Below, one piece after another: positions 6,942-56,665 of a DNA stretch of 64,000 nucleotides (position 1 is the stretch's first letter; every line of letters starts with the position of its first letter). A program made the position numbers and the translations under genes. Source of the stretch: an uncultured Duodenibacillus sp. (GTDB lineage: Bacteria; Pseudomonadota; Gammaproteobacteria; Burkholderiales; Burkholderiaceae_F); assembly GCA_944390745.1 (NCBI GenBank), contig CALXQK010000013.1, forward strand, positions 248,001 to 312,000, read 5' to 3'. The notes below the pieces were generated by a model. The model did not search any database, had not been told where the DNA came from, and saw only the letters and a list, made by a program, of their open reading frames with translations.

Positions 6942-7787
6942 CTACATTCCCGACCCCTTGAGCGTCCTCGAGGAGCTTGCCTGCGGCTGCCAGCGCATGG
7001 CGCGCCGCTCGACGATGCCCACCAGCCAGTCGAGCACCAGGGCAAAGGCGGTGAGCACCAGGATGCCCGCCATGACGGTGTTGATGTCAAAGACGCCCTC
7101 GGCCTGCAGAATCAGGTAGCCCACGCCATGGCTCGAGCCGAGGTACTCGCCCACGACCGCGCCGACGAAGGCCATGCCCACCGAGGTGTGCAGCGAGGAG
7201 AACACCCAGCTCATGGCCGAGGGCAGGTAGACGTTCTTGAGCAGCTGGTTGCGGCTCGCGCCAAGCATTCGCGCCGAGGCGAGCACGTTGGGGTTGACCT
7301 CCCGCACGCCCTGGTAGACGTTAAAGAAGACGATGAAAAAGACAAGCGTCACGCCCAGGGCCACCTTGCTCGCGATTCCCAGCCCGAACCACACGGCGAA
7401 GATCGGCGCGAGAATCACGCGCGGCATCGAGTTCAGGCCCTTGATGAAGGGATCGGCCACCGCGGCGGCAAACGGCGACAGGGCAAGCCACATGCCCGTG
7501 GCCCCGCCCGTGATGGTGCCCACCACAAAGGCGAGAATCGTCTCAACGAGCGTCGTCCACAGATGCGCATAGATGTCGGCGTTGCCGATGAACCAGTCCC
7601 AGATGCGCGAGAAGATCACGAGCGGCTCGCCGAAGAAGAAGGCCGCCTGGTTGTCATCGTCAAAGACGAAGGCCGGAATGAGCCCGGGCTTGGTGAGCGC
7701 CCACCAGACAATGAAGAGCCCCGCGAGCAGTCCGAACTGCCAGACGCGAAGCTTGAAGCGGTATTTCGTCACGTTGTTCATCGACAT
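6942..7787 (-). CDS. ABC importer permease, SsuC/TauC type
   Basis: The 281-residue integral membrane protein has about six predicted membrane segments. The EAA-type cytoplasmic loop appears as ARMLGASRNQLLKNVYLPSAM around residues 175-195. This is the permease of the sulfonate/taurine/nitrate/thiamine-precursor group of importers. It is the last gene of a three-gene minus-strand operon (binding protein, ATPase, permease), 38 bases after the ATPase gene. The FXFDDDNQ segment after the first membrane helix is a long periplasmic loop. The transported compound cannot be inferred from this subunit. Confidence 0.9.
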   Translation of the reverse strand: MSMNNVTKYRFKLRVWQFGLLAGLFIVWWALTKPGLIPAFVFDDDNQAAFFFGEPLVIFSRIWDWFIGNADIYAHLWTTLVETILAFVVGTITGGATGMWLALSPFAAAVADPFIKGLNSMPRVILAPIFAVWFGLGIASKVALGVTLVFFIVFFNVYQGVREVNPNVLASARMLGASRNQLLKNVYLPSAMSWVFSSLHTSVGMAFVGAVVGEYLGSSHGVGYLILQAEGVFDINTVMAGILVLTAFALVLDWLVGIVERRAMRWQPQASSSRTLKGSGM

Positions 7788-7825: not shown

Positions 7826-8647
7826 CTAGGGCTTGACCTTGGACTGCATCTGCGCGTAGCCCTTGAGCACCTCGTCGCGCAACACCGACCAGATGGCGGT
7901 GTGCAGCTCAATGAAGCGCGGCGTGACGCGCACTTCGCTCACATCGCGCGGTCTCGGAAGGTCGATGATGAACTCCCCGATCGGATGACTTTCGGGCCCG
8001 GCGCTCAGAACCACCACCCGGTCGCTCATCGAGATGGCCTCGTCAAGGTCGTGCGTGATGAAGAGCACCGCCTTTCTCTTGGCCTGCCAGAGGTTCAGGA
8101 GCTCGTTTTCCATGAGCTGCCGCGTCTGGATGTCAAGCGCCGAGAACGACTCGTCCATCAAAATGATGTCCGGATCCTTGATGAGGGTCTGGGCCATCGC
8201 CACGCGCTTTCTCATGCCGCCCGAAAGGTGGTGCGGGTAGCGGTCCTCGAATCCGGTGAGTCCCACGCGCGCGAGCCACTCGCGGGCGCGTTCGCGCGCC
8301 TGCTCAATCGGCACGCCCTCAAAGACCAGGCCCGCGGCGACATTGTCAAGGGCGCTCTTCCAGGGCATGAGGCTGTCGGCCTGGAACATGTAGCCCGCAC
8401 GCCGGTTCAGGCCGCTGAGCGGCTCGCCGAAGATCTTCACGCTGCCTTCGCTCGGTTCGAGCAGGCCTGCGCTCATGTTGAGCAGCGTGGACTTGCCGCA
8501 GCCCGTGGGGCCGACGACGCTGACGAATTCGCCGTCAGCCACCGTGAGGTTGACTCCCTTGACGGCCGTGTAGATGCTCGTCACGCCCGAGTCGCTGCTG
8601 ACGAACGTGCAGGCGAGATTGCTGAGTTCAATTGCCGGTTTGGACAT
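7826..8647 (-). CDS. ABC importer ATP-binding protein, SsuB/TauB type
   Basis: This is a 273-residue cytoplasmic ATPase. It has Walker A GPTGCGKST near residue 46, signature LSGGMRKR near 140, Walker B ILMDESFSALD near 160 and the switch histidine in FITHD. It energises uptake with the permease encoded downstream. The binding-protein gene lies upstream across a 139-base gap holding two strong hairpins. Sequence groups it with nitrate/sulfonate/taurine ATPases; that group does not fix the substrate. Confidence 0.92.
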   Translation of the reverse strand: MSKPAIELSNLACTFVSSDSGVTSIYTAVKGVNLTVADGEFVSVVGPTGCGKSTLLNMSAGLLEPSEGSVKIFGEPLSGLNRRAGYMFQADSLMPWKSALDNVAAGLVFEGVPIEQARERAREWLARVGLTGFEDRYPHHLSGGMRKRVAMAQTLIKDPDIILMDESFSALDIQTRQLMENELLNLWQAKRKAVLFITHDLDEAISMSDRVVVLSAGPESHPIGEFIIDLPRPRDVSEVRVTPRFIELHTAIWSVLRDEVLKGYAQMQSKVKP

Positions 8648-8786: not shown

Positions 8787-9812
8787 TCAGGCCGGATACT
8801 TCTTCCAGGCCTGCTCCACAAACGCATTGGTGAAGGTCGCCTTGAAGTCGGGCTTGAAGTTCCTGAGCTTGTCGTTGACGATGGTGAGCATCTTGAAGGA
8901 GATCTCGGGGGCATGCTCGGGAATGGCGCCGTCCTTGGAGAGGGCCGGACGGTTCTTGAGGAAGCCCTCGACGTAGATCTCCTTGTTGCCGAGGAAGTAG
9001 CTCTCGGGCACGGTCTTGACGATGTCATCGGCCGTGGCCTTCGCAAGCCAGCGGTCGGCGCGCACGACGGCGTTGGCAAGGCCCTGGACAATGTCGGGGT
9101 TGTCCTTGATGTAGCGCGTGGGGGCGTACAGGCACCCCGCCACGAGCGGGCCGCCGAAGAGCTTGTCGCTTTCCTCGACGACGCGGGTGTCGGCCACGAT
9201 CTTGATGATGTTGTCCTTTTGCAGCGTGGCGATCACCGGATCAAGATTCACGAAGGCGTCGATCTGGCCCGAGCGCATGGCGGCCACGGCCGCCGACGAG
9301 GAGCCCACGCCGATGAAGGAAACGTCGGCGGCCTTGAGGCCGGCCGTCGAGAGGATGTAGAGCGCGATGGCGTGCGAGCTCGAGCCCGGGGCGGTGACGC
9401 CGATCTTCTTGCCCTTCAGTTCGGCAATCGACTTGAAGCCGGGCATCGTCTTGTTGCTCACAGCAAAGACGCACTGCGGCGCACGGCCCTGCAGCACGAA
9501 GGCCTGCAGCGACTGGCGGCGCGCCTGCATGGCGATGGTGTGCTCAAAGGCGCCCGAGACGACGTCGGCCGACCCGCCCACCACGGCCTGCAGGGAGCGC
9601 GAGCCGCCCTGAAAGTCGATGATCTCCACGTCAAGCCCCTCGTCCTTGAAGTAGCCGAGTCTCTCGGCAATCGAGATCGGCAGGTAGTAGTAAAGCGCCT
9701 TGCCGCCCACGGCGATCTTCACGCTCTTGGGGGCGGCGAGCACCGAGGGGGCGGTGCCGACGGCGGCGGCCGCGGCGGCTGCAGCGATGAAATGGCGACG
9801 GGTCAACAGCAT
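8787..9812 (-). CDS. ABC importer substrate-binding protein, NMT1/SsuA-like
   Basis: The 341-residue protein starts at the ATG at 9812, preceded by GGAG. An in-frame extension to 10022 is rejected because it would read through the attenuator hairpin and lacks a signal peptide. The N-terminus, LTRRHFIAAAAAAA, is Tat-like and ends near SVLAAP. The mature part has the NMT1/THI5-like periplasmic binding fold (YYLPISIAERLGYFKDEGL, then GAFEHTIAMQA, then GKKIGVTAPGSSSH), as in nitrate, sulfonate, taurine and pyrimidine-precursor binding proteins. It is the first structural gene of the operon, and its expression is probably set by the leader upstream. The ligand is unknown. Confidence 0.9.
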   Translation of the reverse strand: MLLTRRHFIAAAAAAAAVGTAPSVLAAPKSVKIAVGGKALYYYLPISIAERLGYFKDEGLDVEIIDFQGGSRSLQAVVGGSADVVSGAFEHTIAMQARRQSLQAFVLQGRAPQCVFAVSNKTMPGFKSIAELKGKKIGVTAPGSSSHAIALYILSTAGLKAADVSFIGVGSSSAAVAAMRSGQIDAFVNLDPVIATLQKDNIIKIVADTRVVEESDKLFGGPLVAGCLYAPTRYIKDNPDIVQGLANAVVRADRWLAKATADDIVKTVPESYFLGNKEIYVEGFLKNRPALSKDGAIPEHAPEISFKMLTIVNDKLRNFKPDFKATFTNAFVEQAWKKYPA

Positions 9813-9830
9813 TTTCAATATCTCCGGATC

Positions 9831-9866
9831 AAAAAAAACGCACCGCCCCGCATGGGGAAGTGCGTC
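9831..9866 (-). terminator. Intrinsic terminator (attenuator) directly upstream of the binding-protein gene
   Basis: On the minus strand GACGCAC (9866-9860) starts a stem with GGTGCGT (9844-9838). CCCC/GGGG pairs extend it around an ATGC loop, and eight T residues follow (9838-9831). Only about 18 bases separate the T-run from the start codon at 9812, leaving no room for a promoter. Transcripts must therefore cross this terminator to express the operon, which makes it an attenuator. The 5' arm is also complementary to 10022-10016. Confidence 0.85.
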
Positions 9867-10006
9867 TGTTGGTGATTCTTTTGAAGGTTCCGCCGGGCGT
9901 GGTGTTCGGCCGCGCAGCGCGCACCTTCGAGGAGTCAGGATCTTTTGCTGGAGCGCCTCTGCCTGAGGCGCCTCGGAAGGCCTGAGCCCCTCCTTTTCGG
10001 GAGGAC

Positions 10007-10144
10007 TCATGCACCGACGCACCCGCGCATGCTCCTCCCGGCTCCTAGAGCTAGAGCTAGGGTTAGCATGCGCAACAGACCGCAGGCCTCCCGAAGGAGA
10101 CCTCTTCCGGCACTTCCGGAATAAACAGGTCTGCAGTGCGTCAT
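10007..10144 (-). CDS. Putative 45-codon leader peptide controlling the ABC importer operon
   Basis: This ORF begins at the ATG at 10144, seven bases after the SD-like AGGAAG (10157-10152) and about 40 bases after the predicted transcription start. It ends at TGA 10007-10009. The peptide begins MTHCRPVY and contains LTLALALG, in which leucine codons 27, 29, 31 and 33 are all CTA, a codon expected to be very rare at this base composition. Codons 2-3 contain segment 1 (GACGCAC), and codons 41-43 contain segment 2 (GTGCGTC), which can pair with either segment 1 or the terminator arm. This layout is that of a translation-coupled attenuator peptide such as those of leu or trp operons. It is not a known family. 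Confidence 0.6.
   Translation of the reverse strand: MTHCRPVYSGSAGRGLLREACGLLRMLTLALALGAGRSMRGCVGA
10025..10073 (-). other. Inverted repeat enclosing the CTA codons of the leader ORF
   Basis: GCGCATGCT at 10025-10033 is the exact reverse complement of 10065-10073, a 9-bp stem that encloses the CTA-rich part of the leader ORF. An inner TAGAGCTAGAGCTA tract is itself nearly self-complementary. It may act as a pause hairpin. Confidence 0.6.
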
Positions 10145-10192
10145 TTGGATTCTTCCTGATTGTTCGGGCGTTCCTCGAACGCCGTTTCGTGC

Positions 10193-10221
10193 AAGATAGC
10201 GCGCCGCCGATGTGTTGTCAA
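10193..10221 (-). promoter_or_regulatory. Sigma-70-type promoter for the leader and ABC importer operon
   Basis: Read on the minus strand, TTGACA (10221-10216) and TATCTT (10198-10193) are separated by exactly 17 bases. This is the best promoter match in the window. Transcription would begin near 10186, giving a leader of about 370 bases before the binding-protein gene. A 7-bp hairpin (10167-10183) lies close to the predicted 5' end. Confidence 0.75.
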
Positions 10222-56591: not shown

Positions 56592-56665
56592 GCGGGCGTA
56601 GTTCAATGGCAGAACGAAAGCTTCCCAAGCTTTATACGAGGGTTCGATTCCCTTCGCCCGCTCCA
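56592..56665 (+). tRNA. tRNA-Gly (anticodon CCC)
   Basis: A 7-bp acceptor stem, GCGGGCG/CGCCCGC (56592-56598 with 56655-56661), is followed by T and an encoded CCA (56663-56665). The anticodon stem AAAGC/GCTTT encloses loop TTCCCAA with anticodon CCC at 56624-56626. The T-arm reads AGGGTTCGATTCCCTT. It reads GGG glycine codons. Confidence 0.95.

Follow-up and report, generated by a model that had tools for sequence, protein, structure and literature searches.

A leucine-rich leader that very probably serves as a ribosome-mediated transcription attenuator was found in the window, the whole 64,000-nt stretch of Duodenibacillus DNA analysed here, between recR and a three-gene ABC importer. Judging from the comparison of related genomes, it would read the supply of leucyl-tRNA and control this importer, which is of the SsuA/NMT1 type. 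Leucine-rich leader ORFs are present upstream of the orthologous importer in six Sutterellaceae genera (29 leaders), most weakly in Sutterella. The comparison shows that a leucine run, the use of rare leucine codons, a predicted terminator and the predicted pairing of its 5' arm near the end of the ORF (segments 2 and 3 in Table 1) occur together across genera.

A translation-coupled attenuator had been proposed at this place in a first-pass annotation made from the letters alone, and this reading is supported by the relatives. The promoter, the AGGAAG sequence, the 45-codon ORF, the three complementary 7-mers and the terminator that it described are all present where it had placed them (Table 1). 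The leader ORF encodes the peptide MTHCRPVYSGSAGRGLLREACGLLRMLTLALALGAGRSMRGCVGA, and the ORF listing places it inside a longer GTG-started frame. TTGACA-17-TATCTT is the sole promoter-like site between 9000 and 11000 of the window, against a mean of 0.1 in shuffled sequences. The terminator hairpin (-21.0 kcal/mol) came from a wider scan and was absent from the first terminator scan. Further hairpins are predicted between the leader stop and the terminator (9879-10001, minus strand), in a region for which the nearest relatives give no alignment, and stems resembling the GGGAGGA...TCCTCCC hairpin were seen by eye in some relatives.

Table 1. Predicted parts of the leader and the importer genes that follow it, in window coordinates
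Feature	Position	Strand	Basis
Sigma70-type promoter TTGACA-17-TATCTT (TTGACA 10221-10216, TATCTT 10198-10193)	10193..10221	-	read in sequence
Shine-Dalgarno AGGAAG of the leader ORF	10152..10157	-	read in sequence
Leader ORF, 45 codons, ATG 10144 to TGA 10007	10007..10144	-	relatives have leucine-rich ORFs at this place
Segment 1, GACGCAC (1:2 partner)	10136..10142	-	paired to segment 2 in the window's predicted fold; unsupported as a class in relatives
Leucine run CTG TTG CGC ATG CTA ACC CTA GCT CTA GCT CTA	10046..10078	-	leucine and CTA enrichment
Segment 2, GTGCGTC, antiterminator 5' strand, 23 nt past the last leucine codon	10016..10022	-	
Local hairpin GGGAGGA...TCCTCCC around segment 2 and the stop codon	9999..10039	-	
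Segment 3, GACGCAC, common to antiterminator and terminator	9860..9866	-	
Intrinsic terminator, hairpin and eight T, 18 nt before the ATG at 9812	9831..9866	-	
Substrate-binding protein, SsuA/NMT1-type, close to PDB 3QSL	8787..9812	-	profile and structure matches
ABC importer ATP-binding subunit	7826..8647	-	profile matches
ABC importer permease	6942..7787	-	profile matches

The window leader folds more stably than its dinucleotide shuffles (z -5.0 over 379 nt and z -5.3 over 141 nt). Taken alone, its 2:3 pairing is modestly above shuffles (p 0.036) and its 1:2 pairing is no better than shuffles (p 0.56). With pairings this weak in a single sequence, the decision falls to the relatives and the proof is comparative. 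No known riboswitch was found at the leader, which has no credible Rfam match by gathering score or at E<=10. The nearest is Trp_leader on the terminator stem with 16.9 bits against a required 41, and there is no gathering-score match to the Rfam leucine leader family. In the whole window, a tRNA at 56592 alone reaches a gathering score. No plasmid copies were found at E 1e-5.

A total of 67 genomes of the family were compared. The binding protein was found at E 1e-40 in 47 of them, and the upstream stretches could be read in 46, which consist of 29 from the six leader genera and 17 from other genera, the latter used as controls. The leader genera are g1 (mostly Duodenibacillus, the window's genus), g7 (a Burkholderiaceae bacterium), g14 (Mesosutterella/Dakarella), g15 (Parasutterella), g16 (Sutterella) and g17 (Turicimonas). 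Turicimonas muris YL45, Parasutterella excrementihominis YIT 11859 and Duodenibacillus massiliensis are among the strains carrying the leader. G004 was left out throughout, its contig starting inside ssuA. The near duplicates G045 (of G044) and G046 (of G043) are counted in the terminator, leucine and 2:3 tallies; G045 is left out of the 1:2 test, and both are left out of the segment-distance and promoter comparison and of the 27-leader CTA tally. The codon comparison between leader and ssuA covers the leaders other than G005, G045, G046, G051, G054, G056 and G061. Only 227 nt lie upstream in G058, and the upstream stretches of L154 and L215 are misplaced cuts. ORF starts in the folding of RNA behind the leucine run, and segments in the pairing, distance and covariation tests, were chosen by hand.

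Leucine is the amino acid that sets the leaders apart. The maximum number of leucines per 12 codons averages 5.62 in the 29 leaders and 3.09 in 20 dinucleotide shuffles (sd 0.19), giving z 13.6, and the runners-up are alanine (z 4.4), threonine (4.2), cysteine (3.5) and glycine (3.2). The excess is absent from the 17 control homologues of other genera (z 0.5) and from the reverse strand of the leaders (3.07 per 12 codons). Arginine was considered as a co-signal and dropped, showing no enrichment over shuffles by the 12-codon measure (z 1.3). With the automatic ORF pick, at least five leucines in 12 codons are found in 21 of 29 leaders, including seven of the nine from the window's genus, versus one of 17 controls (G066), among which G042 yielded no ORF. 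The eight leaders below this number are G003, G009 and six of the nine from Sutterella; the automatic pick took another ORF in G009, so its ORF was picked by hand and has five. Among 87 loci outside the six genera, L183 reaches six leucines in 12 codons and a different locus, L201, has a T run near the gene, and none combines a leucine-rich ORF with a T run; L215 is miscut, L181 and L204 have short upstream stretches, and some of these genomes are shared with the 17 controls. The leader ORF is thus conserved in relatives as a leucine-rich ORF and not as a fixed peptide. The best promoter-like site within 160 nt has TTGACA with a spacer of 17 or 18 nt in all nine leaders of the genus, and its second hexamer is TATCTT in six and TACCTT, TACCCT or TATTCT in three.

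The CTA codons, on which a stall had been proposed without mention of the amino acid, encode leucine. They make up four of the eight leucine codons of the window leader. Only one leucine codon is rarer than CTA in the window (10/1627, 0.6%, in 45 ORFs selected for high GC3, a selection that in itself works against A-ending codons such as CTA), and CTA is used for none of the 257 leucines of eight hand-picked window genes. In eight of the nine leaders of the genus CTA accounts for 19/57 leucines versus 0/188 in ssuA (p 6e-14), and in 14 of the 20 leaders of the other genera for 12/97 versus 6/353 (p 3e-5). The codon CTC, common in the genus, shows the opposite trend (2/57 in leaders versus 60/188 in ssuA). 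Counted over 27 leaders, CTA holds 22/65 leucine codons in the genus and 13/122 elsewhere. The first-pass emphasis on CTA is upheld by enrichment in several genera despite the rarity of the codon in the window. Leucine is kept while the codons differ, with much TTG in Turicimonas and CTT in Sutterella. According to the accessible part of Elf and Ehrenberg 2005 (PMC1183508), CUA is the most suitable control codon of a leu attenuator for E. coli, the change of three CUA to CUG in the Salmonella leu attenuator lowered its sensitivity, and in theory UUG and UUA should be insensitive in E. coli. The TTG-rich leaders of g15 and g17 do not suit the last prediction, which counts against the leucine reading.

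In all 20 leaders outside Sutterella, the gene is preceded by a hairpin with a T tract whose end lies 14-43 nt away, and this distance leaves little room for another promoter. The 5' arm of the terminator pairs near the ORF end above shuffles in 15 of the 20, near duplicates G044 and G045 both included, and the five others are G002 (0.08), G007 (0.10), G009 (0.07), G043 (0.37) and G046 (0.31). Segment 2 lies 3-25 nt past a leucine codon, and its sequence differs among genera. The partners are GTGCGTC/GACGCAC in g1, of the ATCCGCC/GGCGGAT type in two g14 lineages, and of the GGACTGTTTTTG/CAAGAACAGTCC type in g7, g15 and g17, where 70 of 72 cells of the pairing group pair and five changes are one-sided. 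In g1 the core is exact in eight of nine leaders, and G007, outside this count, has a bulged form; an invariant core provides no covariation evidence within the genus. The antiterminator proposed in the first-pass annotation is supported by these counts and by the joint swapping of partners between genera. Covariation holds to the extent that arm and partner are replaced together between genera, and two-sided changes within genera are confined to two in g14. When the RNA behind the leucine run was folded alone, the antiterminator beat the whole terminator in four of five stretches holding both (G048, G050, G063 and G064), and the terminator was preferred in G033.

Two other elements of the original scheme are doubtful or need correction. 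Pairing of segments 1 and 2, proposed to permit the terminator, exceeds shuffles in four of 19 leaders (p<0.05) and is not supported as a conserved element of the class. The scheme also had segment 2 covered by a ribosome at the end of the ORF, and in five of 18 leaders none of segment 2 would be covered, given a ribosome footprint of the size generally accepted. The reason is that the stop codon shifts from leader to leader, whereas in the genus the leucine run keeps a spacing of roughly 23 nt from segment 2. In each of the 18 leaders tested, three to nine leucine codons lie 10-50 nt before segment 2. Within the genus, the nearest leucine codon that lies entirely ahead of segment 2 ends 23-25 nt before it in eight of nine leaders and 18 nt before it in G009, and the end of the stop codon ranges from 34 nt after the start of segment 2 (G005) to 19 nt before it (G003). 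It is the predicted distance between stall site and segment 2, not the stop position, that is conserved in the genus. A further leucine codon overlaps segment 2 in several leaders.

A model of the switch can be drawn from these parts. RNA polymerase would start just downstream of 10193, and a ribosome would translate the 45-codon leader. With ample charged tRNA-Leu, the ribosome would run through the CTA-rich run and over segment 2; covering segment 2 would leave segment 3 free, so that the terminator folds and transcription ends short of the importer. Under leucine shortage, the ribosome would stall in the leucine run and expose segment 2 about 23 nt downstream, which would pair with segment 3, prevent the terminator and allow the importer genes to be read. 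Leucine shortage thus probably lets the cell switch uptake on. Translation, stalling, read-through and the relief of leucine shortage by the importer are what we infer.

Three other explanations were weighed. The very stable multi-branch fold (z -5.3), closed by segments 1 and 2, could belong to a metabolite riboswitch in which the folded region 10142-10016 binds a ligand and the small ORF is incidental, and query positions 84-189 and 313-379 are the parts aligned with the nearest relatives. We regard this as very unlikely, since the leader has no Rfam match, its closing stem is unsupported in relatives, and the constancy of leucine across genera with varying codons, together with CTA enrichment, is a translational signature. 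Alternatively, a leucine- and arginine-rich arrest peptide, or any slowing of translation, might stall the ribosome, the signal then being a drug or stress rather than leucine. The bmrC/bmrD genes are a known ABC transporter under ribosome-mediated attenuation, as far as the accessible part of PMC4191407 describes, and LLRL-type stretches recur in several genera. Yet beyond the run the peptide shows no conservation from genus to genus and its end point varies, arginine is not enriched, rare leucine codons are over-used and the controlled gene is an importer, all of which make an arrest peptide improbable.

The leader might also be ordinary intergenic sequence, with the terminator belonging to recR, the ORF arising by chance and the importer expressed from read-through. 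It is true that recR lies just upstream in the window, that a RecR-like ORF was seen by eye upstream in eight of 80 loci, and that the window leader alone reaches no better than its modest 2:3 value. However, a promoter of the same type separates recR from the leader in all nine leaders of the genus, and in G073, a more distant relative in which an upstream frame looks RecR-like by eye, neither a leucine leader nor a T run is seen in the gap. Set beside the leucine, CTA and 2:3 data across genera, a chance arrangement is extremely improbable, and attenuation by leucyl-tRNA supply is the explanation we prefer.

The leaders of Sutterella are poorer in leucine, with three of nine reaching five per 12 codons. 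The terminator scan found none in six of the nine, and the hairpins of the other three are weak or distant (-3.5, -3.7 and -12.2 kcal/mol, 50-73 nt away from the gene). We guess that the Sutterella leader may be a Rho-dependent or translational version. At L030, L031, L036, L043, L045, L052, L060, L062 and L064, Sutterella shows ORFs with leucine/arginine runs, such as LLRLRLRVEDGI, and with a hairpin close to the stop codon or spanning it, and no strong terminator with a T run precedes the gene.

A general leucine regulon was also considered and rejected. Among 30 stretches upstream of leuA (9), leuC (5), ilvB (6) and brnQ (10), each taken as the last 500 nt and reaching into the gene, none shows a leader as strong as the one before the importer, and no ORF reaches six leucines in 12 codons. 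Ten of them reach four, three reach five (leuA of G033, leuC of G044 and brnQ of G047), and a loose scan gave terminator-like hairpins of -9 kcal/mol or better in 11. That the checked leucine biosynthesis genes have no equal leader would be odd if leucine is the signal, and it counts against the proposal. A five-per-12 ORF and a terminator-like hairpin coincide before leuA in G033 (L139) and before brnQ in G047 (L270), which are possible, weaker candidate leucine leaders. BrnQ, of a family of branched-chain amino acid carriers, occurs in many leader genomes, where its gene mostly has no such leader, a further point against the proposal; loss of BrnQ was discarded as the reason for the leader, its distribution being patchy and not tied to it. 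Two Sutterella genomes carry a BrnQ-type gene some 6 kb downstream from the gene for the binding protein (G051:C1:2587556-2588860, in L277, and G054:C273:10366-11670).

The binding protein passes the Pfam NMT1 profile (78.8 vs 20.5) and falls below the curated SsuA cut-off (TIGR01728, 106.8 bits vs 163.5). Its closest solved relative is PDB 3QSL (Bordetella bronchiseptica CAE31940; E 1.9e-106 over residues 1-340, 49% identity, TM 0.75), which is labelled a putative exported protein with no stated function or ligand, and no paper pairing '3QSL' with Bordetella was found in the open-licence literature. Foldseek ranks 3QSL ahead of Thi5, SsuA, thiamin, taurine, nitrate and PQQ binders, and the fold was set aside as a guide to the cargo, as it gave no decision. 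Around 146 binding-protein loci (many of them duplicates, Sutterellaceae included), a CaiB-type CoA-transferase flanks 19 and an HMG-CoA lyase five, and LeuC and LeuD neighbours occur at one. In that locus (G038, L261:5789-8966) the LeuC and LeuD homologues lie between binding protein and ATPase, with a CaiB-type CoA-transferase just upstream; in L263:3876-7177 the genes for the binding protein and a CaiB-type CoA-transferase are divergently oriented, and an HMG-CoA lyase comes after the CoA-transferase. Across the 146 loci, the leader genera contribute no CaiB, HMG-CoA lyase or LeuCD neighbour.

PF13458, the LivJ/LivK type, was found at E 1e-20 in none of 33 genomes of the six leader genera (three of which have no importer) versus 23 of 34 others. 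The 11 others in which it is missing include all nine genomes of g2, which also have no importer; the loss therefore extends beyond the leader genomes. In nine of the 29 leader genomes no acetolactate synthase was found, and these nine all carry leuA; some assemblies are incomplete. The corresponding profile, TIGR00118, had no match in nine of the 12 g16 genomes (with a weak fragment match in a tenth), in the nine of g2, or in G009 and G047, and leuA is present in most of the TIGR00118-negative genomes. The gene neighbours, the LivJ/LivK and acetolactate synthase gaps and the leucine control suggest, we think, uptake of a branched-chain carboxylate. Tentatively, these gut Sutterellaceae, where no LivJ/LivK-type importer was found, might attenuate the NMT1-type importer by leucine since it imports a leucine precursor or branched-chain acid, e.g. 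a branched hydroxy- or keto-acid, as a leucine-salvage route, with Sutterella using the same switch without an intrinsic terminator; this is possible but rather doubtful.

Classical amino acid attenuators sit on biosynthesis genes of known product, and the leu operon leader of E. coli and Salmonella is leucine-rich. The leader described here resembles the leu operon attenuator of Escherichia coli and Salmonella in its leucine-rich leader and its rare CUA control codons. The leu attenuator governs leucine biosynthesis, whereas the present one precedes an ABC importer and the leuA and leuC stretches checked have no leader of equal strength. Proteobacterial attenuators were reportedly the subject of a comparative study by Vitreschak in 2004. 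In Staphylococcus aureus, ilv-leu has a leucine-rich cis attenuator with leader peptide, terminator and antiterminator (PMC5794164, accessible part), thus the same leucine-responsive layout, but in a Gram-positive biosynthetic operon with CodY control besides; in the accessible part, no transporter is said to have an attenuator. The candidate leucine leaders known from Actinobacteria ('LEU element'; PMC1262725, accessible part) have similar leucine-codon runs, some with no obvious terminator as in Sutterella, and are located on ilvB, leuS and leuA, biosynthetic or synthetase genes unlike the importer here; the word 'transporter' is absent from the main text. The Bacillus subtilis bmrC/bmrD system likewise represents ribosome-mediated transcriptional attenuation of an ABC transporter, but a multidrug one that responds to antibiotics, and no leucine run is described in the accessible part of PMC4191407. 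The logic is that of known leu attenuators. In the open-licence literature (titles and abstract starts), no description of such a leader on an NMT1-type importer was found.

More is understood of the attenuator than of the gene under its predicted control, so the leucine signal would be a handle on the cargo of the 3QSL-type importer family. Because the leader is present in named gut strains, it can be tested by experiment. Leucine control would be the first clue to what the importer carries, and the leader bears on how these gut bacteria may obtain branched-chain carbon.
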